A stretch of 64,000 nt of DNA, taken from the NCBI RefSeq assembly GCF_035645195.1, contig NZ_DASQNA010000027.1:62001-126000 (forward strand), given 5' to 3'. How positions within the stretch are numbered: position 1 is the first letter of the stretch; every line of letters begins with the position of its first letter. The position numbers and the translations under genes were made by a program. The notes beneath the pieces were generated by a model, which saw only the letters and a program-made list of their open reading frames with translations, had not been told where the DNA came from and did no database searches. Source of the DNA: Paenibacillus sp. (GTDB lineage: Bacteria > Bacillota > Bacilli > Paenibacillales > YIM-B00363). Of this stretch, positions 13,762-33,788 are shown one piece after another.

Positions 13762-14532
13762 ATGAGGAGATGGAGCGCGACGGGGCTGGGGCTGCTGCTG
13801 ATGGCCGCCTCGGTGTTCGGTTTCAACCGGTACGCGGAACGGGTGGAACGGCAGGCGGCGACGGTAGAGGCGATCATGCCGACCCGGTTGATCGCGAGCG
13901 GGGAGACGGTGGACGCTTCGCTGCTGCGCCGCGTGCGCATCCCGAAGGAGGCGCTGCCGGACGACGCGCTTCGAGATGAAGGAAGCATCGTCGGCCGCAC
14001 GGCGGTCGCGCCGATCGGCCCGAACGAGACGTTCGCCGCTTGGAAGCTGGCGAATCGGCAGCTGACGCCGAAGCCGGGAGAGCGGTACGTCAGCTTCCCG
14101 ACGACGGACGTCACGAACGTCGGCAATATGCTGAGGCGCGGCGACCGCGTCGACGTGTGGGTCGAATTCGAGTCGCCCGTCATGCTGGGCGGAGCGGCGA
14201 AGGGCGCGCTGAAGGTGGCCGAGGGGGTGCGCGTCGCCAGCGTTCGGACCTCGGAAGGCGCGGAGGTCGGGGATACGTACGGGTACGACGCGCCGTTCCA
14301 GTCCGCTTCGACGCAGCGAGAGCGGGTGAGGGCGAGCGCGAACGGGAAGCCCGGCATGAATACGTTCATCATGACCGAACCGATTTACGAGGCGTTCGCG
14401 CTCGCGTCGCTCGTCGGCACGATCAAGCTGGCGCTGCCCGAGCCTTCGCTCGAGAGCGAAGCCGACGCGCGGGTCACCGACGAATTCGAAGCATATCGGA
14501 ATCAATTGATGGCGGGGGAGGAGCCGACATGA
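13762..14532 (+). CDS. CpaB/RcpC-like Flp pilus assembly protein with SAF domain
   Basis: A 256-residue protein with one N-terminal membrane helix (residues ~5-22) and an SAF domain at ~38-105 (AIMPTRLIASGETVDASLL ... VGRTAVAPIGPNE), as in CpaB/RcpC. The segment GNMLRRGDRVDVWVEF matches the CpaB C-terminal domain. CpaB is thought to sit outside the membrane and organise Tad pilus assembly. The open frame extends upstream, but ATG 13762 follows a GGAGGAGAG site and begins the membrane helix. Its end overlaps the TadZ-like start (ATGA). Confidence 0.85.
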   Translation: MRRWSATGLGLLLMAASVFGFNRYAERVERQAATVEAIMPTRLIASGETVDASLLRRVRIPKEALPDDALRDEGSIVGRTAVAPIGPNETFAAWKLANRQLTPKPGERYVSFPTTDVTNVGNMLRRGDRVDVWVEFESPVMLGGAAKGALKVAEGVRVASVRTSEGAEVGDTYGYDAPFQSASTQRERVRASANGKPGMNTFIMTEPIYEAFALASLVGTIKLALPEPSLESEADARVTDEFEAYRNQLMAGEEPT

Positions 14533-15758
14533 GCCTATTGATCGGAATGAAGGAAGGCGAGGAGCTGGACCGGCTGCTCGAGGCGCTGCCGGCGGGGGCG
14601 GACCGGCGGACGGTCGCCCGTTCGAAGGAGTCGTTCTGGCGCGCGGCGGAGCAGCGGTTCGACGCCGTCCTGCTCCATGCGGAGCTCGTCGCGGACATGT
14701 ATCCGTGGGAGTGGGCGGCGCGGCTGCGGGAGCGGCAGCCTTACGCGAAGATCGTTGTGTTTTTATGCGAAGAAGTGTACGACTCGCTATGGCTTGAGGT
14801 GGTTGAGCGGCTGTCGACGGAAGCGGGATTCGTCGCGACGCCGGTCGGGTGCGGTATGGAAGAACGGCGAGGCATCGCGCTGCAGACGCTGCTCGGGGAA
14901 GCGCCGCCGGCGGACGTCTCCCGAACGGGCGTCGTCGCCGCGGTGTGGTCCGCCGCCTGCAAGGACGGGGCGACGACGGTCGCCGCGAACGCGGCGTTGA
15001 CGCTGGCCAGGGAAGCGCCCGGGCTCAGCGTCGGGCTGCTCGATTTGAACTTGAAAAATCCGGAGCTGCGGCTGCTGCTCGGCCATGCGGACGCCGGGCG
15101 GTCGAACGCGTCGCTGCGGCCGAAGCTGCAGACCGGGTCGCTGACGACCGCGGAGCTGCTCGCCGCGACGGCGCCGTTCCGCAGAACGCCGAATTTGCGG
15201 CTGCTGTGCGGCACGCACCGGCGCGACACGGCGGGGGACGTGAGCGCCGATATGATGGGCACGCTGCTGGCCGTGTGCCGCCGGACGTTCGACGTGACGG
15301 TCGTCGACGTCTCCTCGTACCCGGACAACGCCGCTACCGTCTGCGCCGTACGCGGAGCGGACGCGCGTTGGCTTGTGGCGTCCAATCGGCCGAGCTCTTA
15401 CCTCTGGAGCTGGGGCGAATGGTACGAGTGCTACTGGAAGCACTGCGGGATCTCTCCCGCGGACGCGGAGCTCGTCTGCAACCGGTACGACCCGGCGGGC
15501 GATCCGCCGGAGAAGGCGGCCGCGGCGATCGGCATGAAGCTCGCGGCCGTGCTGCCGAACGTGCCGGGCGGCGCGGGACTCCGGCTGTCGGAGCTCGGGA
15601 AGCCGCTGGCGGACGCGCCGCAGGCGGAGCCGTTCGCGGCGGAAATGTACCGGCTCGCGAGCCGGCTGCACGTGCTGGCGGGCAAGGCGCCGCTCCCGGA
15701 GCGGCGGTCGGCGCGCCGGCGCTACGGCTTCATGTCGATGATTTCAAGCTTATTTTAA
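14529..15758 (+). CDS. TadZ/CpaE-like ParA-family ATPase
   Basis: A 409-residue protein. Residues ~1-125 resemble a degenerate receiver domain (FDAVLLHAELV ... KIVVFLCEEVYD). Residues ~135-400 are MinD/ParA-like: AAVWSAACKDGATTVAAN is the Walker A region, with lysine placed as in the deviant P-loop, VGLLDLNLKNPELRLLLG follows, and FDVTVVDVSSYPDNAA is the Walker B-like strand. TadZ proteins place the Tad machine in the cell. It overlaps cpaB by 4 bp and precedes the CpaF ATPase by 12 bp. The P-loop lacks the usual G-K-[ST], so ATPase activity may be weak. Confidence 0.82.
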   Translation: MSLLIGMKEGEELDRLLEALPAGADRRTVARSKESFWRAAEQRFDAVLLHAELVADMYPWEWAARLRERQPYAKIVVFLCEEVYDSLWLEVVERLSTEAGFVATPVGCGMEERRGIALQTLLGEAPPADVSRTGVVAAVWSAACKDGATTVAANAALTLAREAPGLSVGLLDLNLKNPELRLLLGHADAGRSNASLRPKLQTGSLTTAELLAATAPFRRTPNLRLLCGTHRRDTAGDVSADMMGTLLAVCRRTFDVTVVDVSSYPDNAATVCAVRGADARWLVASNRPSSYLWSWGEWYECYWKHCGISPADAELVCNRYDPAGDPPEKAAAAIGMKLAAVLPNVPGGAGLRLSELGKPLADAPQAEPFAAEMYRLASRLHVLAGKAPLPERRSARRRYGFMSMISSLF

Positions 15759-15770
15759 GGAGGCGGGAAC

Positions 15771-17156
15771 ATGACAGGGTTGTCGATGCGGCCGAGGGCC
15801 CGGTTCGATCCCGCCAAATATCGGCGCGAGCTGCTTCAGGCGGAACGGTCCGCTCCCGGCGGCGAAGCGCAGCGCACGGTGTCGCTGCAGGAGGCGTCCC
15901 GCATCGTATATGAGCGCCTGACCGAACGATCGAAACGAGACGAGAGCTTGTATAACGATATTTTGAACGCCGGACTCGGCGAGCCGGGGGCGCAGGCGCG
16001 AATGAAGGCGACGATCGATACGCTGTTGTCCGAATTTCGGCTGGAAATCGACCCGAGCACGATGATCGACGATTTGTCGCCGACAGACTGCGTGTTCGCC
16101 ACCGCCTGCGGCGCCGGCTTGATCGAAGATTTGAAGCAGCAGCCGGACGTGGAGGAGGTGCAGGTGATCGGCCGATCCATCTACGTCATTCGGGAAGGGA
16201 GGCAGACGCTGCACCATCGGACGTTCTCGAGCCTCGAGGAGGTGCGGCTTGTCCAAGACCGGTTGGCGCTTTGCGGCAAGAAACCGATCAGCGAACGTCA
16301 GCCGTTCGTACAGTCGTACTTATGGAACCGGTCCCGGCTGGTTATGACGAGGGAGCCGTATACGGACGTGCCGAGCATTCATATCCGCAACTTTATCGTG
16401 AAGGACGTCACGCTCGCCAAGCTGGTCGAGCTCGGCACGATCGATGCGCGAACCGCGGAACTGCTGGCGCTGCTCGTTCGTTACCACGCCAGCTTTCTGA
16501 TCGGAGGCGGGACGAACACGGGGAAGACGACGTTCTTGTATGCGCTGGCTTCGGAAATTCCGGAGGAAGAGCGGATTCGGACGCTGGAGAAAGAGTTCGA
16601 AATCGCGCTGCGGGAGCGGCTCGGCGGCCGGAGGAACATTTTGGCCGCGCGCGAGACGCTCGAAGCGGATCTGCCCATGGAGGAAGCCTTCAAACCGCTG
16701 CTCGTCATGAGCCCCGAGTGGGTCATCGTCGGCGAGGCGAAAGGGGCGGAAGTCGCGCAGATGGTGCAAGGCGCGCTGCGGGGGCACGACGTGATGGGGA
16801 CGATGCATACGAAGTACAGGGAGTCGTTCCTCTCCGACGTCGTCGACATGTTGAAGCAGGACGGGAGAAGCCACGATACGCTAGATGCGAAACGGCGAAT
16901 CGCGCGAGCGTTCAATATCCTGATCTTTCTGCGCCTCGTGAAGGACGGCGAACGAATGCGGCGGGTCGCGACCGAGGTGACGGAGCTGCACGTCGACGAA
17001 GACGGGAAGCCGGCCGCCAAACCGCTAGTGCTGTGGGACTACGAACGCAAAACGTGGACCTTCACCGGGACCTCGCTCAGCGCGCCGCTGCGAAATCACT
17101 TGCTATCTCGCGGAGCCGACCCGGAGCCGTTCCGCAGACTGGGGGTATGGCCGTGA
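15771..17156 (+). CDS. cpaF: CpaF/TadA secretion ATPase
   Basis: The 461-residue hexameric motor ATPase powers Tad pilus assembly. The Walker A motif is GGGTNTGKTTFL near residue 245. Walker B lies in SPEWVIVGEAKGAEVA near 320, followed by the conserved HDVMGTMHTKY segment. The N-terminal ~180 residues form the linker domain (EEVQVIGRSIYVIREG, then the P-x-V-x-I-R-like HIRNFIVKDVTL). It begins after a perfect AAGGAGG site and its stop overlaps the TadB start (GTGA). It is the best-conserved marker of the locus. Confidence 0.95.
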   Translation: MTGLSMRPRARFDPAKYRRELLQAERSAPGGEAQRTVSLQEASRIVYERLTERSKRDESLYNDILNAGLGEPGAQARMKATIDTLLSEFRLEIDPSTMIDDLSPTDCVFATACGAGLIEDLKQQPDVEEVQVIGRSIYVIREGRQTLHHRTFSSLEEVRLVQDRLALCGKKPISERQPFVQSYLWNRSRLVMTREPYTDVPSIHIRNFIVKDVTLAKLVELGTIDARTAELLALLVRYHASFLIGGGTNTGKTTFLYALASEIPEEERIRTLEKEFEIALRERLGGRRNILAARETLEADLPMEEAFKPLLVMSPEWVIVGEAKGAEVAQMVQGALRGHDVMGTMHTKYRESFLSDVVDMLKQDGRSHDTLDAKRRIARAFNILIFLRLVKDGERMRRVATEVTELHVDEDGKPAAKPLVLWDYERKTWTFTGTSLSAPLRNHLLSRGADPEPFRRLGVWP

Positions 17157-18124
17157 CCGAGATGTGGATCGCCAGGGCCGCGTTCACGGCGATGTGGCTG
17201 GCCGGTTCCGGCGTCGCCGTCGTCGTTTGGGTGTCTTGGCTGTCGATGCGTTGGAGGGATTGGCGGCTCCGTACATCGTTATTGGGACCGGTGCGACGGC
17301 AGACGGGCGGCTCGTTTCGCGAAATGGCGTTCGTGCGCAAGCTGGCCGACGATATGGAAATCGCCGGGGTGCGGCTCCCGCCGGAGGCGGCGATCGGAAT
17401 GATGCTGTTGATCGGCGCGATCGGCTGGTTCGCCGTCGACGGCGCGATCGACGGCATGCAGCGGAGGTACGCGCTGGATGCCGATCGGCTGACGCCGGTC
17501 AACTCCTGGCTGCTCAATTCGGCGTCGGCGGGGCTGGCAGGGTCTCTCCCGTATTTTTACGTCAAATTCCGTCTCCAGCGCAAACGGCATCGGATCGCGC
17601 TCGATATGATCAAGCTCGTCCAAAATGTCGTCGGCCACTACTCGGACAAGCGTACGGTGCAGGAGCTGATCAGCCGTTCGGCGAACTCCATGCCCGAGTA
17701 CGTCCGCGACGAATGGAAGCGGCTCGAGCTCCGCTCGCATATGGGCGCTTCCTTGGAGGAGGCGCTGTACGAGTTCGCGAGGCGGGCCGACAACGAGTGG
17801 GCGGAAGATATAGCCGATATTTTGCTCATTAAGCATAAGTACGGCAATGACGTCATCGACGCGCTTCATAAGCTGATCGTCGACATGCAGCGAGCCCGTA
17901 AGAACGAGGAGCGCCGGCTCGCGATGGTGACGGTGTACCGCATCGGCACGGCGGTCATGGTGGCGTTCGCGTTCGGCATCGTGTACTTCAACGTGTACGC
18001 GGACGGCTCGAACTACCGCCATTATTTCGTCAACCCGACCGGGCAATGGATCATGCTGGGTTCGGCTGCCGTGCTGTTCGCGTCGATGGTGCTCGTCGTC
18101 AAATCGGGCCGACGCACATTCTGA
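17153..18124 (+). CDS. TadB-like membrane platform protein (T2SSF domain)
   Basis: The 323-residue protein has an N-terminal helix, a pair of membrane segments near residues 80-130, a cytoplasmic T2SSF-like helical bundle (~140-270: LDMIKLVQNVVGHYSDKRT ... MGASLEEALYEFARRADNE) and C-terminal helices. This is the TadB inner-membrane platform layout. GTG 17153 overlaps the cpaF stop and has GGGGG 7 bases upstream; ATG 17147 and ATG 17162 are alternatives. Paired with the TadC-like protein that follows, it would form the pilus base. Confidence 0.85.
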   Translation: MTEMWIARAAFTAMWLAGSGVAVVVWVSWLSMRWRDWRLRTSLLGPVRRQTGGSFREMAFVRKLADDMEIAGVRLPPEAAIGMMLLIGAIGWFAVDGAIDGMQRRYALDADRLTPVNSWLLNSASAGLAGSLPYFYVKFRLQRKRHRIALDMIKLVQNVVGHYSDKRTVQELISRSANSMPEYVRDEWKRLELRSHMGASLEEALYEFARRADNEWAEDIADILLIKHKYGNDVIDALHKLIVDMQRARKNEERRLAMVTVYRIGTAVMVAFAFGIVYFNVYADGSNYRHYFVNPTGQWIMLGSAAVLFASMVLVVKSGRRTF

Positions 18125-18143
18125 TTTGCGGGAGGTGATGCAT

Positions 18144-19007
18144 GTGAAGTGGGTGTGGCTGACGCTGTTCGGCGTCGGGGCGTTCGCCGCAAGTTATTCG
18201 GCGCTGCAGCCGCTCGCGCGGATGCGGACGAACGCCGTGCATGCGCTGCTGGAGCGGATTTGGAAGCGCGATTCGCAGGACGAGCTGGCGCTTCCCGAGC
18301 TGTCTTCGGCCGAGCGGCAGTTTCTCGAGCGGGCACGTCTCGCCGGCGTGAGCTGGTCGTACAGAAACTATACGTGGGGCTGCCGGGGAGCGGCGCTGGC
18401 CGGCGTGTATTTGTGGTCGGCGGCGATGCTGCCGAATGCGGCAGGTTGGGCGGAGGCGGTCCGTTTCGCCTTCGGCGCCGTCTTGTCGGCGGCGATTTGC
18501 CGCCTGCTGCCCCCTGCAGCGATCGCGCTGCTGGCGGCTAGACGCCGCATGCTGATGTTAAGCGAAATTTCGAAGTTCGCGCATCGTCTGTCGATTTGCA
18601 TGACGGAGCAAACCGATATGCGGGAGCTCATTCTTCGCGCCGGGAGGCCGCTGAGGTTATTGAAGCCGCCATTGCAGCAGCTGGCCGCGCAGTGGGGTAA
18701 CGACCAGCGGGAGGCGATTCTCGCATTCAAGGACGCCGTCGGCATATCAGAGGTGTACCCGCTCGTCAACGCGTTCGCCGCCGTCAGCCGCGCGAAGCCG
18801 TCGGACGTCAGGAGGCTACTCGTCGAACATTCGAAAGCGATCGACGCGACGTTGGAGGCGGAAATTACCAAACGAATCGAAAACGCGCCCGTTTGGATCA
18901 GTTTCTATATCATGATCCCGTTCCTAGTGTGTTTGGTGCTATTCGTGTACCCGTGGATGCTTACCGTGCTGGAGCAGATGGCCGTAAGCTTCTCGTCGCC
19001 GGGGTAA
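18144..19007 (+). CDS. TadC-like membrane platform protein
   Basis: A 287-residue membrane protein with helices near the N-terminus, ~75-130 and at the C-terminus (ENAPVWISFYIMIPFLVCLV), and a cytoplasmic helical region (MLMLSEISKFAHRLSICMTEQ) typical of the second T2SSF-type platform protein in Tad loci. GTG 18144 is selected because GGGAGG lies 8 bases upstream. It follows TadB by 19 bp. Similarity to TadC is by position and topology more than by residues. Confidence 0.72.
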   Translation: MKWVWLTLFGVGAFAASYSALQPLARMRTNAVHALLERIWKRDSQDELALPELSSAERQFLERARLAGVSWSYRNYTWGCRGAALAGVYLWSAAMLPNAAGWAEAVRFAFGAVLSAAICRLLPPAAIALLAARRRMLMLSEISKFAHRLSICMTEQTDMRELILRAGRPLRLLKPPLQQLAAQWGNDQREAILAFKDAVGISEVYPLVNAFAAVSRAKPSDVRRLLVEHSKAIDATLEAEITKRIENAPVWISFYIMIPFLVCLVLFVYPWMLTVLEQMAVSFSSPG

Positions 19008-19150
19008 CGGCGGGGTACGCAGGGGAGGGAGATCGGCAACGGTTCGCTGATCCGGCTGGGGCGGGAACTTGGTAGGAAACGGCACGGCAGCCGGGGTGGA
19101 TCGGCGTCATATCCTTTAGGCGCGGCGGAAGCGGGAGGGGGGATTGAACG

Positions 19151-19288
19151 ATGGGAAAGCTGGTAACGGCGCTGGCATTGACCGTGCTTGTGTTGGGCGC
19201 TGCGTTGTACACGTTCGGCGAAGTCATCTTGCCTGCGGCAGGGGAGGCGGGACGATCGACGGCGGCGCAAATCGAAGCTTCTTTTTGA
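19151..19288 (+). CDS. Small single-helix protein 1 of Tad locus (45 aa)
   Basis: A 45-residue product: a two- or three-residue basic start (MGKL), one long hydrophobic helix (residues ~5-27) and a short polar tail ending AAQIEASF. It has a strong ribosome site (GGAGGGGGG) 8 bases before ATG. Two similar small genes follow. Size and layout recall Flp pilins, but the Flp cleavage pattern (G followed by E-Y five residues on) is absent. It could be a non-canonical pilin, a minor pilin, or an assembly peptide. Confidence 0.6.
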   Translation: MGKLVTALALTVLVLGAALYTFGEVILPAAGEAGRSTAAQIEASF

Positions 19289-19342
19289 CGACGATGTCGA
19301 GTCCGTATTCATTATCCATTTAAAATATAGGAGGAATGGTTC

Positions 19343-19522
19343 ATGAGTAAAATCGGGGTAGCTTTGGCGTTGTGCGTGCTGTTGTTAGGAGCGGTGCTGG
19401 TCATCGGCAACGGGGTGGCGACCCAAGCGGTCGACCGCGGCAACGATATCGGCGCGTCGCTGTCGGATGCGAACTTGGGCGTGAACCAAACGAGCGGCGC
19501 GATCACGATCGACACGCCGTAA
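19343..19522 (+). CDS. Small single-helix protein 2 of Tad locus (59 aa)
   Basis: A 59-residue product starting MSKIG, with a hydrophobic helix over residues ~4-24 and a 35-residue polar tail rich in Asn, Asp, Gly and Ser (GNDIGASLSDANLGVNQTSG). ATG 19343 follows a good AGGAGG site (19329-19334). It looks like a paralogue of the small proteins on each side in its N-terminal half. Having the longest exposed tail, it is the most likely of the three to be a structural subunit, but no known prepilin peptidase site is visible. Confidence 0.6.
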   Translation: MSKIGVALALCVLLLGAVLVIGNGVATQAVDRGNDIGASLSDANLGVNQTSGAITIDTP

Positions 19523-19526
19523 CGTC

Positions 19527-19682
19527 ATGTCGAAGCTGCTGGTTTCGTTGTCGCTGCTGGTGCTCGTGTTCGGCATCGCCCTGTACATCTTTCAAGGAGG
19601 CGCCGGCGTGAACGACGCCGTGCGGGAGGGTCACGCCTCCGTGTTGGACGCGGCGCGCGGCTTCGATTACGTTTCGAATTGA
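19527..19682 (+). CDS. Small single-helix protein 3 of Tad locus (51 aa)
   Basis: A 51-residue product starting MSKLL, with a hydrophobic helix over residues ~3-23 (VSLSLLVLVFGIALYIF) and a polar tail ending FDYVSN. It starts only 4 bp after the previous stop, so translation is probably coupled; there is no separate strong ribosome site. It is the third of three look-alike small membrane proteins between TadC and the TadE-like genes. Confidence 0.55.
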   Translation: MSKLLVSLSLLVLVFGIALYIFQGGAGVNDAVREGHASVLDAARGFDYVSN

Positions 19683-19707
19683 TGTTTGCGATACGGGGGG
19701 AAATTAG

Positions 19708-20160
19708 GTGCGATTGCGGAACGAACGGGGAGGAGCCGATACGATGCTGGTCACGCTGTTCGTGTTCCCCCTGCTTTTGTTTGCATGCTTTGCGGGCGTC
19801 CCGTTCTTCGTATACTTGATGAAAGGGACCCATGTGAACGTCGCGGCCAACCATGCGCTGAAGGAAGCAGAAACCGTCGGGTACGTCAGTCCGGAGGTAG
19901 CGGATCGGACCGTCGCGAGACTGGCCTCCCTCGGCATAGAGCCGATTACGCTCAATGGCGTGACGTATCCGTCGTTCGCGGGCAGCACGATGCAGAAGGT
20001 GCTGCGTGACGACGCCGACGCGGTCGTCACCGTCGTACTCACGTACCCTGCGCCGAACGTAGCTGCACTGCTCGGTCTCGTCGGAGGCGGCGGAGGAGGC
20101 GGGGAGACCGAGGGATTTTACCGGGTCGTTCTCCATGGGAAAAGCGAAGCGTATGAGTAA
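19708..20160 (+). CDS. TadE-like pseudopilin
   Basis: A 150-residue protein with a short basic start followed by NERGGADTMLVTLFVFPLLL, the Arg-Gly-Gly-(A/S) plus hydrophobic helix pattern of TadE-type minor pilins, then an extracytoplasmic domain. A run of seven glycines (near residues 127-133) interrupts the C-terminal part. Translation starts at GTG 19708. It overlaps the next gene, whose N-terminus carries the same NERGSA pattern. Expected role: minor subunit at the pilus tip or base. Confidence 0.68.
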   Translation: MRLRNERGGADTMLVTLFVFPLLLFACFAGVPFFVYLMKGTHVNVAANHALKEAETVGYVSPEVADRTVARLASLGIEPITLNGVTYPSFAGSTMQKVLRDDADAVVTVVLTYPAPNVAALLGLVGGGGGGGETEGFYRVVLHGKSEAYE

Positions 20161-20701
20161 GCGGGGGGCGCTGCTCGCCAACGAACGCGGCTCGGCGCAT
20201 GTGCTGCTGTTCGCGCTGCTTGCGGCGGTATTCGGCGTGCTGCTGTTCGTCACGTCGATCGAATGGATGCTTCAGTCCGCGAACAAGACGAAGTCGAAGC
20301 TGGCGCTGGACCGCGCCGCGCATGCTGCGGCGGTACACGTCGATTTGACGGAAGCCGCCTTCGGACGATTGGCTTGGGACGAGGACGCCGGACGCGCCGA
20401 ATTCGATCGGTTCATGAGGTTGAATTTCGGGCTCGGCGCGGACGGTCGGCCGACGGACGGCAGCTGGCTGGAATTTCCGCCCGTCGTCCATCGGCTCGAG
20501 TTCGTCGAAGCTCCCGCGTATCCGGCGACGATTCGCCGAACCGTCGTGACGCACGAGGGAGAGCGGACCGAAACGACGCGGCATGTCGACGTTACCGTAT
20601 ACGGTCCTTCCGTTGTGGCGATCGTAGAGGTGCACCAACGCGTGCGCGGAGAGCCGGAGCCGATCGTGCTCTCCAGCGTCGCCAGCGTGCGCTTTCGATG
20701 A
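20153..20701 (+). CDS. TadE/TadG-like pilus accessory protein
   Basis: Around 182 residues from ATG 20153 (ATG 20135 would add six). The N-terminus ANERGSAHVLLFALLAAVFG repeats the pattern of the preceding TadE-like protein, and LALDRAAHAAAVHVDLTEA is the common helix after the membrane segment in TadE/TadG-type proteins, followed by a domain with several beta strands. It ends the Tad operon 3 bp before a terminator hairpin. The start overlaps the previous stop (ATGAGTAA), which indicates coupling. Confidence 0.65.
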   Translation: MSKRGALLANERGSAHVLLFALLAAVFGVLLFVTSIEWMLQSANKTKSKLALDRAAHAAAVHVDLTEAAFGRLAWDEDAGRAEFDRFMRLNFGLGADGRPTDGSWLEFPPVVHRLEFVEAPAYPATIRRTVVTHEGERTETTRHVDVTVYGPSVVAIVEVHQRVRGEPEPIVLSSVASVRFR

Positions 20702-30153: not shown

Positions 30154-31776
30154 TTATAGTTGACCGTATACGGTCTCCGTCACCGTCGTCGGCGGCGGAA
30201 CAGGAACCGGAATCGCGATCGGCGGTTGAGTCGGAAGCGTCCCCGGCACGCCCGCTGGGAGCGGAAATTCTACTTTGACCCGGTTAGCCTGCTGCTCCGT
30301 TTTCGTATCGCTCCCGAATTGATAAGCTCGGTGCAGCATAGCGGCCGCTTGGGCGCGAGTGACGGGCAGTTGCGCCCGGAACGTATCGTCCGGAAAACCG
30401 GATACCAGTTTCGATTCCACCGCGATCGAGACGTAATTTCTCGCATACGACGATATACTCGAAACATCCGTAAACATGGCATCCAAAATACTGTGATCCG
30501 GAAAATGCGTAGCGTCGTAGCCTTTTAGTTTAACGATCGCTACTGCAAGATCCTCCCGGAGAGCGGGCGCATCCGGATCATAAATCAAACGACCGTCGGG
30601 CAGCGCGTACCCGTTCAAATAAAACTTAGCCGCTTCCACGAACGGCGCATGCCAATCTCCCGGTTTCACGTCCGCGAAGGACGTTTGCGTGACCGGCTCT
30701 ACCGTTAGCCCTGCGGCCAGTACCATGATCTTCGCCAGCTCTGCGCGGGTCACCGTCCGTTCAGGCCTAAACTTGCCGTCCGGATAACCTCCCAAGACGC
30801 CTCGGCTGGACAGGTCGTTAATCGAGGAGAGAGCCCAGTACGACGCATCGACATCGCTGAACAATTGTTGGGCCGGTTTGTTCAGCAGGTTAGGGTCGAT
30901 GTCGCTCCCGTAATCTAACGGATTCCGAGGTGGCTGGGGATTCGCCGGCGGCTGCTGCGGAACCGTCCCGCCATTTTCCCCGACTTGAAATACGTCCTCT
31001 CGAAACCCTAACGGTTTGAACTCATTATCGTACAGAATCGTTAATGCGTAAGTTTGCCCCGAACGCGGAATCGAGGATCCGTACCCTGTTTGATCGTTAT
31101 ACACCTCGGAAAAATTTGTAAACTGGTGGATCGTGCCGCTCGAACGGATGTTCAAGTCGCGGTCGGAGCTCATCACCCGAATGCGAGTAAACCGTTTCAT
31201 AGATTCAGGAAGCTTCGATCGGTCGACGTACGTCTTAAACGATTTCGGTCCTTCCGGTACATGCGTCACCCCCGATTCGATCCACGGGACTGCGCCGCTC
31301 GTCACCGGCGGTTTGCTTCCGCTGACTCTAATCAACGTCACATCGCTTGCCACTTCCCATCGGTACACGGTGCTCGCGGAGGGAGCGATCAACCGGTAAG
31401 CCGTACCGACTTCCATGGAATCGATATTGGCGATCTCGAACCCGAAGCCGCTGATGGTGTTCGTGCTGAACCCTCCGGTAATTTGCGCGTACACTTCAGG
31501 CTTGCCGTCGGCTTGAAGCACGAAATTCGTCCCGGCGTAATTAATGAAATCCATGTCTTCCCCGTGAATGACTTGGGCGGTAGCTACGATAAAATCGTAC
31601 ATCGTGTGCGCCAGTTCCGGAGGCATGTCGGAGGAGTTACCCCAGATCGAATCGATGATTTGCACGGTGCGAAGGTTCGTCCCTTCGGCGTACGAATTCC
31701 CCGGTACGGAGAAAACCGAGGCGAATAATGTCAATATACAAGCTAGGACTAGGGGCACAATCTGTTTGCTTACCAT
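30154..31776 (-). CDS. Secreted SLH-domain surface protein
   Basis: A 540-residue protein. A signal peptide spans residues 1-30 (hydrophobic core LVLACILTLFASVFS, ending near SYAEG). The middle part (~35-275) is unrecognised and beta-rich. A proline-rich linker (PQQPPANPQPPRNP) follows. Residues ~310-495 hold three SLH domains (FSDVDASYWALSSINDL; FADVKPGDWHAPFVEAA; FTDVSSISSYARNYVSIA). The second and third SLH repeats are divergent. The tail is again proline-rich (PIPVPVPPPTT). SLH domains bind pyruvylated secondary cell-wall polymer, so it should sit on the outside of the wall. It is transcribed divergently from the next SLH gene. Confidence 0.85.
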   Translation of the reverse strand: MVSKQIVPLVLACILTLFASVFSVPGNSYAEGTNLRTVQIIDSIWGNSSDMPPELAHTMYDFIVATAQVIHGEDMDFINYAGTNFVLQADGKPEVYAQITGGFSTNTISGFGFEIANIDSMEVGTAYRLIAPSASTVYRWEVASDVTLIRVSGSKPPVTSGAVPWIESGVTHVPEGPKSFKTYVDRSKLPESMKRFTRIRVMSSDRDLNIRSSGTIHQFTNFSEVYNDQTGYGSSIPRSGQTYALTILYDNEFKPLGFREDVFQVGENGGTVPQQPPANPQPPRNPLDYGSDIDPNLLNKPAQQLFSDVDASYWALSSINDLSSRGVLGGYPDGKFRPERTVTRAELAKIMVLAAGLTVEPVTQTSFADVKPGDWHAPFVEAAKFYLNGYALPDGRLIYDPDAPALREDLAVAIVKLKGYDATHFPDHSILDAMFTDVSSISSYARNYVSIAVESKLVSGFPDDTFRAQLPVTRAQAAAMLHRAYQFGSDTKTEQQANRVKVEFPLPAGVPGTLPTQPPIAIPVPVPPPTTVTETVYGQL

Positions 31777-31988: not shown

Positions 31989-33788
31989 ATGCCCACAAGA
32001 AGTTGGCTTCGGATGATCACGGCCTCCGTCGTCGCTTTCGCGGTGTCGGTTCCTGTTACCCAAAGCGCGAAGCCGACCTTCGCCGACGTCGCAAGGGATG
32101 CTTCGTGGTCGCTGCCGTCCGTCGTCGAGCTGACGCATCGGGGCATTTTCACCGGATACGAGGACGGCAGCTTCGCGCCGAACCGCGCGGTCACGCGCAT
32201 CGAGGCGCTGGCGGCGATCGTTCGTCATATGGGTCTTCGGGCGGAGGCCGAATCGGACAAAACGCGGAGAGCTCGGTTGTCCGCCGCAGACACCGATCTG
32301 ATCAAGCGGGATTACGACTGGGCGACGGGGTATGTCGAAATCGCGGAGAAATACAACCTGTTGGACGACGAAAAGGCTGCATTCGGACCCGGGGAGCAGG
32401 CGAATCGCCTCTGGACGACGAAACTGCTTGTCCGCGCTCTAGGCCTTCAGAGGGAGGCGGAGCGGACTATGGCCGCTGTACTGCCCTTTCAAGACCGTAC
32501 GGCGGTCGCGGAAGGCGACATCGGGTACGTCGCTGTGGCGGTGCAACGCGAGCTGTTGACGGGATATGAAGATGGCACGTTCCGTCCTTCCCGCCGCGTC
32601 AGCCGCGCCGAATTGGCCGCGCTCCTCGACCGGGCCGGCAATCTATATCCAGACCCGACGGGGGAGTTCGGGCAGCTGCAAGGAACCGCGATGAGCGCGA
32701 GCGGCGGCAACATTACCGTAAAGCAGCTTCGCGCCGAGCAAACGTTCCCGGTCGATCCGGCAGCGACGGTGGTGCGGGGAGGGAAACTGGCGTCCATCGG
32801 TGACATCATTCCCGGCGATGAAGTCAGCGTACTTCTGAAAGCAGGGAAGGCCATACACCTGGCCGTCACCGCCTCGGCAACCGTTACCGACGGCACGAAG
32901 AGCGGCACGGTTTCGTCTTTCGGCAACGACTACATCACCCTTTACGAGCAGGAAGGGGTGACCCGAAGCTATAAGGTGGGCAGCGCCGTCGCCGTTTCTC
33001 TGAAAGGCAGCCCCGCCGTATGGACCGACCTTCGAATCGGAGACGAGGTGGCCGTTACGGTAGCCGCAGGAACAGTCACGAGTGTAGATGTGCTTCGGTC
33101 GACCGCATTGGACGGGCGCTACCAGGGCAAGGTGAAATCGATTGAAGCCGACCGCCTGACGTTGACCGTGAACGGAAGCGACATGACCTTCGATGCAAAT
33201 AAGGAGGGCGTTACCGTCCTTTTCAACAACATCCCGGGTGACTGGACCAACATTCAAATCGGCAGCGATGCGGCAATCATCGTATCCGGCGGAGTGGTCT
33301 ACCACGTCAGCGTAACGCAAAACACTCCGGTCACGCAGGACGGGGAGGGGCATGTTACCGCAGTATACCCGAAGCTGCAGCAAATCGTGGTGTTCCGAAA
33401 CGGGGTTAACGAATTGTATACGATCTCCAGGTCAGCGGATATTTTCCGAAGCGGCGTTGAATCCAGTCTGGACAAGATCATGCCGGGCGACAAAGTCGGT
33501 CTGGTCGTGGAGAACGGGGTCGTCACGTTCATCGCCGTCTCCGAACCGGCGAAAGAACAAGTTCGGAACGGGATCGTCAAGGGGATCTACATGTCGCATA
33601 CGTATACGGGCCGGAGCATCGCTCAGGTCACCATCCGGATGGATCAGGACGGAATACCGATCCATTACACGTACGAAGCATTGCCTGACGCAACGGTCGT
33701 CGGAGGCGTGGAGAAGCTGTATTCGGATCGGACGGAAGTCGAGCTGCTGTTGTCCGACGGCAAGGTGTCGCACATCTTCGTTCGTTAA
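31989..33788 (+). CDS. SLH-domain protein with five C-terminal beta repeats
   Basis: The 599-residue secreted protein begins with a signal peptide (residues 1-27). Three SLH domains then occupy ~28-220 (FADVARDASWSLPSVVELTH with GIFTGYEDGSFAPNRAVTR; a degenerate second copy; GDIGYVAVAVQRELLTGYED). From ~225 to the end there are five repeats of about 65 residues, each ending in a strand such as VAVTVAAGTVTSVDV, AAIIVSGGVVYHVSV or VGLVVENGVVTFIAV. Unlike the other SLH proteins here, the anchor is N-terminal and the repeats are displayed outward. A good AAGGAGAGG site precedes the ATG. The repeat region's function is unknown. Confidence 0.83.
   Translation: MPTRSWLRMITASVVAFAVSVPVTQSAKPTFADVARDASWSLPSVVELTHRGIFTGYEDGSFAPNRAVTRIEALAAIVRHMGLRAEAESDKTRRARLSAADTDLIKRDYDWATGYVEIAEKYNLLDDEKAAFGPGEQANRLWTTKLLVRALGLQREAERTMAAVLPFQDRTAVAEGDIGYVAVAVQRELLTGYEDGTFRPSRRVSRAELAALLDRAGNLYPDPTGEFGQLQGTAMSASGGNITVKQLRAEQTFPVDPAATVVRGGKLASIGDIIPGDEVSVLLKAGKAIHLAVTASATVTDGTKSGTVSSFGNDYITLYEQEGVTRSYKVGSAVAVSLKGSPAVWTDLRIGDEVAVTVAAGTVTSVDVLRSTALDGRYQGKVKSIEADRLTLTVNGSDMTFDANKEGVTVLFNNIPGDWTNIQIGSDAAIIVSGGVVYHVSVTQNTPVTQDGEGHVTAVYPKLQQIVVFRNGVNELYTISRSADIFRSGVESSLDKIMPGDKVGLVVENGVVTFIAVSEPAKEQVRNGIVKGIYMSHTYTGRSIAQVTIRMDQDGIPIHYTYEALPDATVVGGVEKLYSDRTEVELLLSDGKVSHIFVR

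Follow-up and report, generated by a model that had tools for sequence, protein, structure and literature searches.

Type IV filaments are commonly defined by the processing of their prepilins, and the question raised by the locus described here is what stands in for the pilin in a Tad-type gene cluster that encodes neither Flp nor a prepilin peptidase. The window, that is, the whole 64-kb stretch of Paenibacillus sp. DNA that was analysed (G000:C27:62001-126000), contains a compact, divergent Tad-type locus spanning positions 13762-20701, in which all genes lie on the + strand in the order cpaB, cpaE-like, cpaF/tadA, tadB, tadC, S1, S2, S3, tadE-like and tadF/G-like. An initial annotation had reported canonical Flp and a prepilin peptidase gene to be missing from this locus, and this was borne out, no Flp_Fap or Peptidase_A24 match being found within it. 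The same annotation had singled out three ORFs of 45, 59 and 51 residues at 19151-19682, here termed S1, S2 and S3, and had suggested that they may be pilins of a non-canonical kind or else peptides peculiar to the Tad systems of Gram-positive bacteria.

A TadA/CpaF secretion ATPase and an RcpC/CpaB protein, as expected of a Tad (type IVc) machine, were both present. The cpaB/rcpC-like gene (13762..14532, +) was identified through Pfam RcpC (PF16976; E=9.6e-9, 35.6 bits against a cut-off of 28.8), with SAF also over its cut-off, and its product scored 59.1 bits with NCBIfam pilus_cpaB, below that model's cut-off of 71. The product of the cpaF/tadA-like gene (15771..17156, +) matched Pfam T2SSE (E=1.4e-25) and the NCBIfam TadA-family ATPase model (E=2e-31, 109.5 bits against a cut-off of 373), and that of the tadB-like platform gene (17147..18124, +) matched Pfam T2SSF over cut-off (E=1.6e-6). 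The divergent cpaE/tadZ-like gene (14529..15758, +) was assigned by its position and by an NCBIfam CpaE_hom_Actino match far below cut-off (E=8.1e-6), and the very divergent tadC-like gene (18138..19007, +) by position, its product matching no Pfam family at E<=1; ORF clustering nevertheless placed both genes in 35/35 of the orthologous loci described below. Family matches were clear for CpaB and CpaF and recognisable for TadB, with TadC, CpaE and both pseudopilins being very divergent, and the machine is Tad-like as judged by its ATPase, its CpaB and its gene order. Clustering of ORFs of at least 90 aa around CpaF in the 35 loci revealed no extra dedicated gene common to all beyond this core, and Rfam and tRNA scans of the 64-kb window gave no match. 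In a group of loci a Ser/Thr-kinase-like gene was seen upstream of cpaB (an ORF cluster in 20 loci, e.g. L064 and L065); in L065 it apparently continues in the same frame into a ParA/MinD-like part, named by eye. Elsewhere in the window, a divergently transcribed pair of genes (30154-31776, -, and 31989-33788, +) encodes S-layer-homology-domain-like proteins, again by eye.

The three small genes were found as annotated, both in coordinates and on the + strand, and each product was confirmed to consist of a single N-terminal hydrophobic helix followed by a short polar tail. S1 (19151..19288, +; 45 aa) has an in-frame stop 1 codon upstream, and S2 (19343..19522, +; 59 aa), whose start is preceded by a Shine-Dalgarno-like AGGAGG, has one 4 codons upstream. 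S3 (19527..19682, +; 51 aa) starts 4 bases past the S2 stop, with its upstream in-frame stop 14 codons away, inside S2. All three were classed as leaderless single-helix proteins and occupy the position of Flp, between TadC and TadE, a placement which is kept across orthologous loci.

To find these loci, the CpaF sequence was used to query 392 genomes of the order, of which 41 matched at E<=1e-40 and 33 (E<1e-120) were counted as orthologues; among the relatives with a window-type locus are Paenibacillus alkalitolerans, P. thermotolerans, P. psychroresistens, P. athensensis and two Cohnella. In total, 35 orthologous loci were read, window included, with L054 left out as its contig ends inside tadC. 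The check proposed in the initial annotation, a search for conserved triplets of small ORFs in related Bacillota Tad loci, gave a positive result: S2 was present in 35/35 loci, and S1 and S3 in 33/35. These counts include L063, where S2 was missed by a stricter pattern search and yet is present at the locus, and L085, where it is a 70-aa variant. The copy number of S2 ranged from 1 to 3, with two or three copies in several loci. In two split loci, G034 (L118) and G050 (L117), S2 and the TadG-like gene stay with the ATPase genes, and S1, S3 and the TadE-like gene lie far away, accompanied in G034 by an apparent degenerate S2. An S3 profile matched 36 of the 392 genomes, namely 33/33 with a CpaF orthologue and 3/359 of the others (G217 strongly, E=6.6e-19; G006 and G056 weakly). 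When 398 genomes sampled across the class were searched with a TadE-like profile, 3 matched; one of these, G731, does not belong to the order and carries a syntenic set with three small proteins. Pooled pN/pS values, from 12, 12 and 11 pairs selected by the analyst, were 0.28 for S1, 0.24 for S2 and 0.21 for S3, indicating purifying selection. Given their synteny in orthologous loci, these low ratios and the tie of the S3 profile to the ATPase, S1, S2 and S3 are not chance ORFs.

The three families are mutually related, with hhalign probabilities of 98.9, 97.5 and 97.6 % for the three pairs and pair scores above all of 20 column-shuffled controls each, which keep the start and the composition of the helix. 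Against Flp, on the other hand, hhalign probabilities did not exceed about 1 %, a level that shuffled columns reached as well, and no match of S1-S3 to PF04964 was seen at E<=1. A PF04964 (Flp_Fap) search of the window genome at E<=10 returned six matches, none on the window's contig, and canonical Flp proteins from seven genomes were found to carry a polar leader and a GQG(M/L)xEYG motif. By every sequence test made, S1-S3 are not members of the Flp family. The initial annotation had named two findings that would together speak against its own proposal, a co-expressed flp gene elsewhere and a lack of conservation of the small ORFs. Their conservation is strong; as for flp, other contigs of the same genome carry three Flp_Fap-type genes (two over the Pfam cut-off, one below) and one Flp1-like gene (an ORF read by the analyst). 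Four other Tad-type loci with leader-bearing small pilins, three of them Flp_Fap-like and one Flp1-like in the analyst's reading, were seen in this genome (L019, L020, L021 and L023, on G000 C15, C21, C10 and C52), each with an A24 gene nearby.

The N-termini of the small proteins were then compared. A pattern search, which itself demands K, Q, T or R at position 3, gathered 116 S ORFs, with Lys at this position in 114 and with residue 2 being S in 60, G in 37, T in 13, A in 3 and D in 3. No acidic residue was found at positions 3-21 in any of the 116, hence no Glu5, and in the alignments the S1-S3 ORFs begin at the helix and show no class III leader, whose last residue ahead of the helix would be Gly or Ala. 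In the window, an ordinary leader would not fit between S1 or S2 and the in-frame stops 1 and 4 codons before them. Elsewhere, a stop no more than 10 codons upstream was seen in 39/50 ORFs classed as S2 and in 23/33 of S3, but in only 12/30 of S1, and several S1 and S3 frames are open upstream for more than 20 codons. Removal of Met by methionine aminopeptidase was considered as a general substitute for cleavage and rejected: residue 2 is small (S, G, T or A) in 113/116 window-type ORFs, but it is Asp in L085, Gln or Asp in G731 and mostly Arg in the Sa and Sb proteins described below, so that Met removal would not be general. S1, S2 and S3 are real, conserved and paralogous genes, have no visible leader or Glu5 and are tied to a Tad-like machine.

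Different starts were found in the two genes which follow, candidates for TadE/TadF pseudopilins by their position. The products of the tadE-like gene (19708..20160, +; leader MRLRNERG) and the tadF/tadG-like gene (20135..20701, +; Gly before the helix) both have a short leader ending in NERG, with the Gly invariant in 26 aligned TadG-like sequences and almost invariant among 25 TadE-like sequences. Five residues past this Gly, neither alignment has a Glu or Asp (the analyst's reading), whereas TadE-type proteins of canonical loci in the same genome do. Alignments A2-A5 comprised 32, 25, 26 and 25 rows and A8 six of the eight available, near-duplicates and doubtful starts having been omitted by choice. 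AlphaFold2 predicted a pilin-like combination of a long N-terminal helix and a beta sheet for both proteins (mean pLDDT 84.6 for the TadE-like and 87.8 for the TadG-like protein), and Foldseek searches with these models against the PDB returned nothing below E=0.001. A Pfam scan of the TadE-like protein, Pfam TadE included, gave no match, and the TadG-like protein reached only E=0.025 with NCBIfam tadE_like.

Following up weaker CpaF matches, which share about 30 % identity, revealed loci of a second type in which the gene order is the same. A tree of CpaF built by a quick method from 60 of 70 rows (10 near-identical window-type rows were dropped) separated the window type, this second type and canonical TadA into three groups without settling the branching among them, and the second type is therefore termed "related" rather than "sister". 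It usually encodes two small proteins, Sa (MRNILITVMM-type) and Sb (MRSILVTVML-type), followed by a TadE-like protein of about 141 aa (MKQILVF-type) and a TadG-like protein of about 160 aa (MYKLLL-type). A profile of this TadE-like protein (8 rows) matched 116 of the 392 genomes of the order, in 26/49 genera, and G077 is the sole genome both among these and among the 33 of the window type. In 28/28 related-type loci read, a start codon at the helix opens the homologous part of the TadE-like protein; 15 of the 28 have a stop no more than 5 codons upstream, and the other 13 frames are open for longer (up to 111 codons), making an upstream start possible, with upstream residues that are not alike. 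The TadG-like protein starts at the helix in most of the 28 loci (ATA, ATC or CTG stands there in three, and L166 is truncated), with a stop within 5 codons upstream in 11/28. An Sa match was found in 24/28 loci, 10 of them with a stop within 5 codons upstream, and several of the 19 rows collected for Sb are in fact Sa genes. In the 28 loci, the TadE-like and mostly also the TadG-like proteins thus appear to start directly at the membrane helix.

Homology between the two types was supported by hhalign for the TadE-like (93.4 %) and TadG-like proteins (99.1 %), the TadE-like alignment placing leaderless residue 4 on window residue 13, just past ERG. Sb was similar to S3 along its length (96.2 %; score 41.8, highest control 20.5) and Sa weakly to S2 (70.7 %; 26.0, highest control 23.4), with the scores of Sa against S1 and S3 and of Sb against S1 and S2 not exceeding those of shuffled controls. 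For one Sb protein, a typical Pilin_N match reached only E=0.058. Downstream of the tadG-like gene in L064, L090-L093, L095, L120 and L121 lies a gene which we take to encode an M24-family, Xaa-Pro peptidase-like protein. Such a gene comes after many loci of both types, which suggests one ancestral genomic site, and it looks like a mark of this shared site rather than a partner of the machine.

A24 peptidase genes are present in most of these genomes. The window genome carries five A24 genes, all on other contigs and none on the window's own; at least one was found in 32/33 window-type genomes, the exception (G131) being 85 % complete, and in 79 of the 80 related-type genomes searched among the 116. 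For the related type, no A24 gene on the same contig came within about 41 kb of the locus (coordinates compared by eye). In G360, a single contig of 5.75 Mb with a completeness of 100, no Peptidase_A24 match was obtained at E<=0.01 and one chance-level match (E=6.6) at E<=10, an absence that applies to the A24 family in this one genome. G360 carries a related-type locus in which all nine core genes were found by tblastn, with open frames for cpaB, cpaE, tadC, Sb, TadE-like and TadG-like; the Walker A motif GPTNSGKT is present in a CpaF frame of 521 aa. In three loci, P. athensensis L059 (= G081), the second G147 copy and G077, an A24 gene lies about 5-12 kb upstream of cpaF. In L059 (337-3385), the stretch directly upstream of cpaB contains A24, a gene of 540 aa and one that by eye looks PP2C-like. 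As this cassette resembles the tail of the Flp1-like locus of G050, its A24 gene was not counted as part of the window-type system, which it may still serve.

Taken together, S1, S2 and S3 are probably pilin-type subunits without a leader, which in Gram-positive bacteria belong to a divergent filament machine of the Tad-like (type IVc) kind. Of the two possibilities raised by the initial annotation, the specific set held good, being conserved in one Bacillota lineage and tied to the machine, and the pilins are the best-supported reading of what the set does. That the small proteins work like a pilin is considered likelier than any rival explanation because of their Flp position and their co-occurrence with the machine, to which the S3 profile in 33/33 genomes with a CpaF orthologue attests; their three paralogous families with tandem S2 copies, the retention of the small set even where S1, S3 and the TadE-like gene have moved elsewhere and the same kind of start in the related-type S-like, TadE-like and TadG-like proteins point the same way, as do the stops close before S1 and S2 in the window, the cross-type homology of the TadE-like and TadG-like proteins, the likeness of Sb to S3 and the A24-free G360 with its related-type locus. 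Against it stand the missing sequence relation to Flp, the lack of Glu5, the lack of a PDB relative of the two AlphaFold2 models, the nearby upstream stop in only 12/30 S1 ORFs, the cross-type pairs of small proteins at or barely above control level, the branching left unsettled by the CpaF tree, the Gly kept in the window TadE-like and TadG-like proteins, usable by a peptidase in trans, and the A24 genes in most genomes tested. From this pattern we infer a membrane topology, polymerisation, a major subunit, absence of later processing and a biological role, as follows. As a signal anchor, each S protein would span the membrane N-in/C-out and would begin, by the position of its start codon, about where a prepilin-peptidase cut would normally make the N-terminus, and the CpaF ATPase and the TadB/TadC platform would pull the helices from the membrane into a thin filament or short pseudopilus. 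S2, present in 1-3 copies and the sole small subunit left in the two split main loci, would be the main subunit. Minor or tip positions may fall to S1, to S3 and to the TadE-like and TadG-like proteins.

It is also conceivable, though unlikely, that the S proteins are no part of the filament and instead assist the machine from within the membrane, by stabilising its platform or as regulators, and that the pseudopilins form the filament or a secretion piston. This would explain why the S proteins have no similarity to Flp, and it agrees with the long helix and sheet predicted for the pseudopilins, with the Gly retained before the helix in the window type and with the structural role proposed for TadE-like subunits where flp is missing, in the part of Imam et al. 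(2011, PMC3244431) considered here. However, it is three paralogues, with tandem copies, that take the place of Flp, S2 and not the TadE-like gene was retained in both split main loci, and the related-type S-like and pseudopilin N-termini look alike. Far less probable is that they are ordinary prepilins whose leader was missed, through an upstream translation start or a peptidase that takes a two-residue leader (M-G or M-S): A24 peptidases elsewhere in the window genome and the S1 and S3 frames open for more than 20 codons would allow it, but the nearby stops before S1 and S2 in the window and before most S2 and S3 ORFs, the varied residue 2 (S, G, T, A or D, and mostly Arg in Sa and Sb) and the absence of Glu5 speak against it. 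We give equally little credence to a machine of Tad descent that exports the small proteins as bacteriocin-, holin- or signal-like peptides, either secreted or acting on membranes, an idea that fits the small size, the single hydrophobic helix and one weak holin-family match (E=0.048) among 30 S1 members scanned, yet conflicts with the strict co-occurrence with the ATPase, the paralogy of the three families and the lack of a further common gene beyond the core.

A wider proposal may be advanced tentatively, as a possibility slightly short of an even chance: that one lineage of type IV filaments no longer relies on a prepilin peptidase, placing the start codon at the former cleavage site and making its pilins "mature" and free of Glu5, for the small subunits in the window type and for every subunit in the related type, which is widespread in the order, with at least one single-contig genome, G360, carrying such a machine without A24. 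For the lineage as a whole, this proposal draws on the missing leaders and on the one genome lacking A24. If true, the leaderless lineage and the A24-free genome would make the need for cleavage, for a processed N-terminus and for Glu5 in assembly directly testable, and would explain why pilin finders based on the prepilin motif would miss the small pilins of such loci.

Full-text searches of the open-licence literature found no paper on "leaderless pilin" or "prepilin peptidase-independent", and titles and opening lines of open-licence abstracts on Tad with Paenibacillus contained nothing describing S1-S3-like proteins. The defining feature of prepilins is a leader whose last residue is Gly or Ala, with Glu5 "often, but not always" present (Pelicic 2023, PMC10191384), and the peptidase can be encoded apart or shared (Denise 2019, PMC6668835); PMC4858521, in the part considered, concerns archaeal systems. 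Compared with Tad/type IVc systems with Flp (PF04964) and TadV, the window locus is alike in CpaB, the CpaE-like protein, CpaF/TadA, TadB, the gene in the TadC position, two pseudopilin-like genes and very small single-helix proteins at the Flp position; it differs in that these small proteins have no leader, Gly-1, Glu5 or Flp match, that the locus itself lacks a peptidase and that the pseudopilins are without Glu5. Small pilins of the Flp1-like kind, known from Tad loci of Bacillota such as G000 C52 and G050, are likewise small single-helix proteins beside a Tad machine, but have their own polar leader, Gly-1 and Glu5 (KDESG/VGTLEILL and EEDGLGTLEILL; the cut site is the analyst's reading). 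The clostridial tad-like loci, compared by description only (Imam et al. 2011, PMC3244431), are also Gram-positive and yielded no protein with a prepilin signal motif, but were reported with tadV and species-specific unknown genes, and section 12 of that paper describes no leaderless small set like S1-S3 for them. As far as that description goes, the few clostridial tad-like loci without the prepilin motif, but with tadV, are the nearest precedent for the locus reported here.
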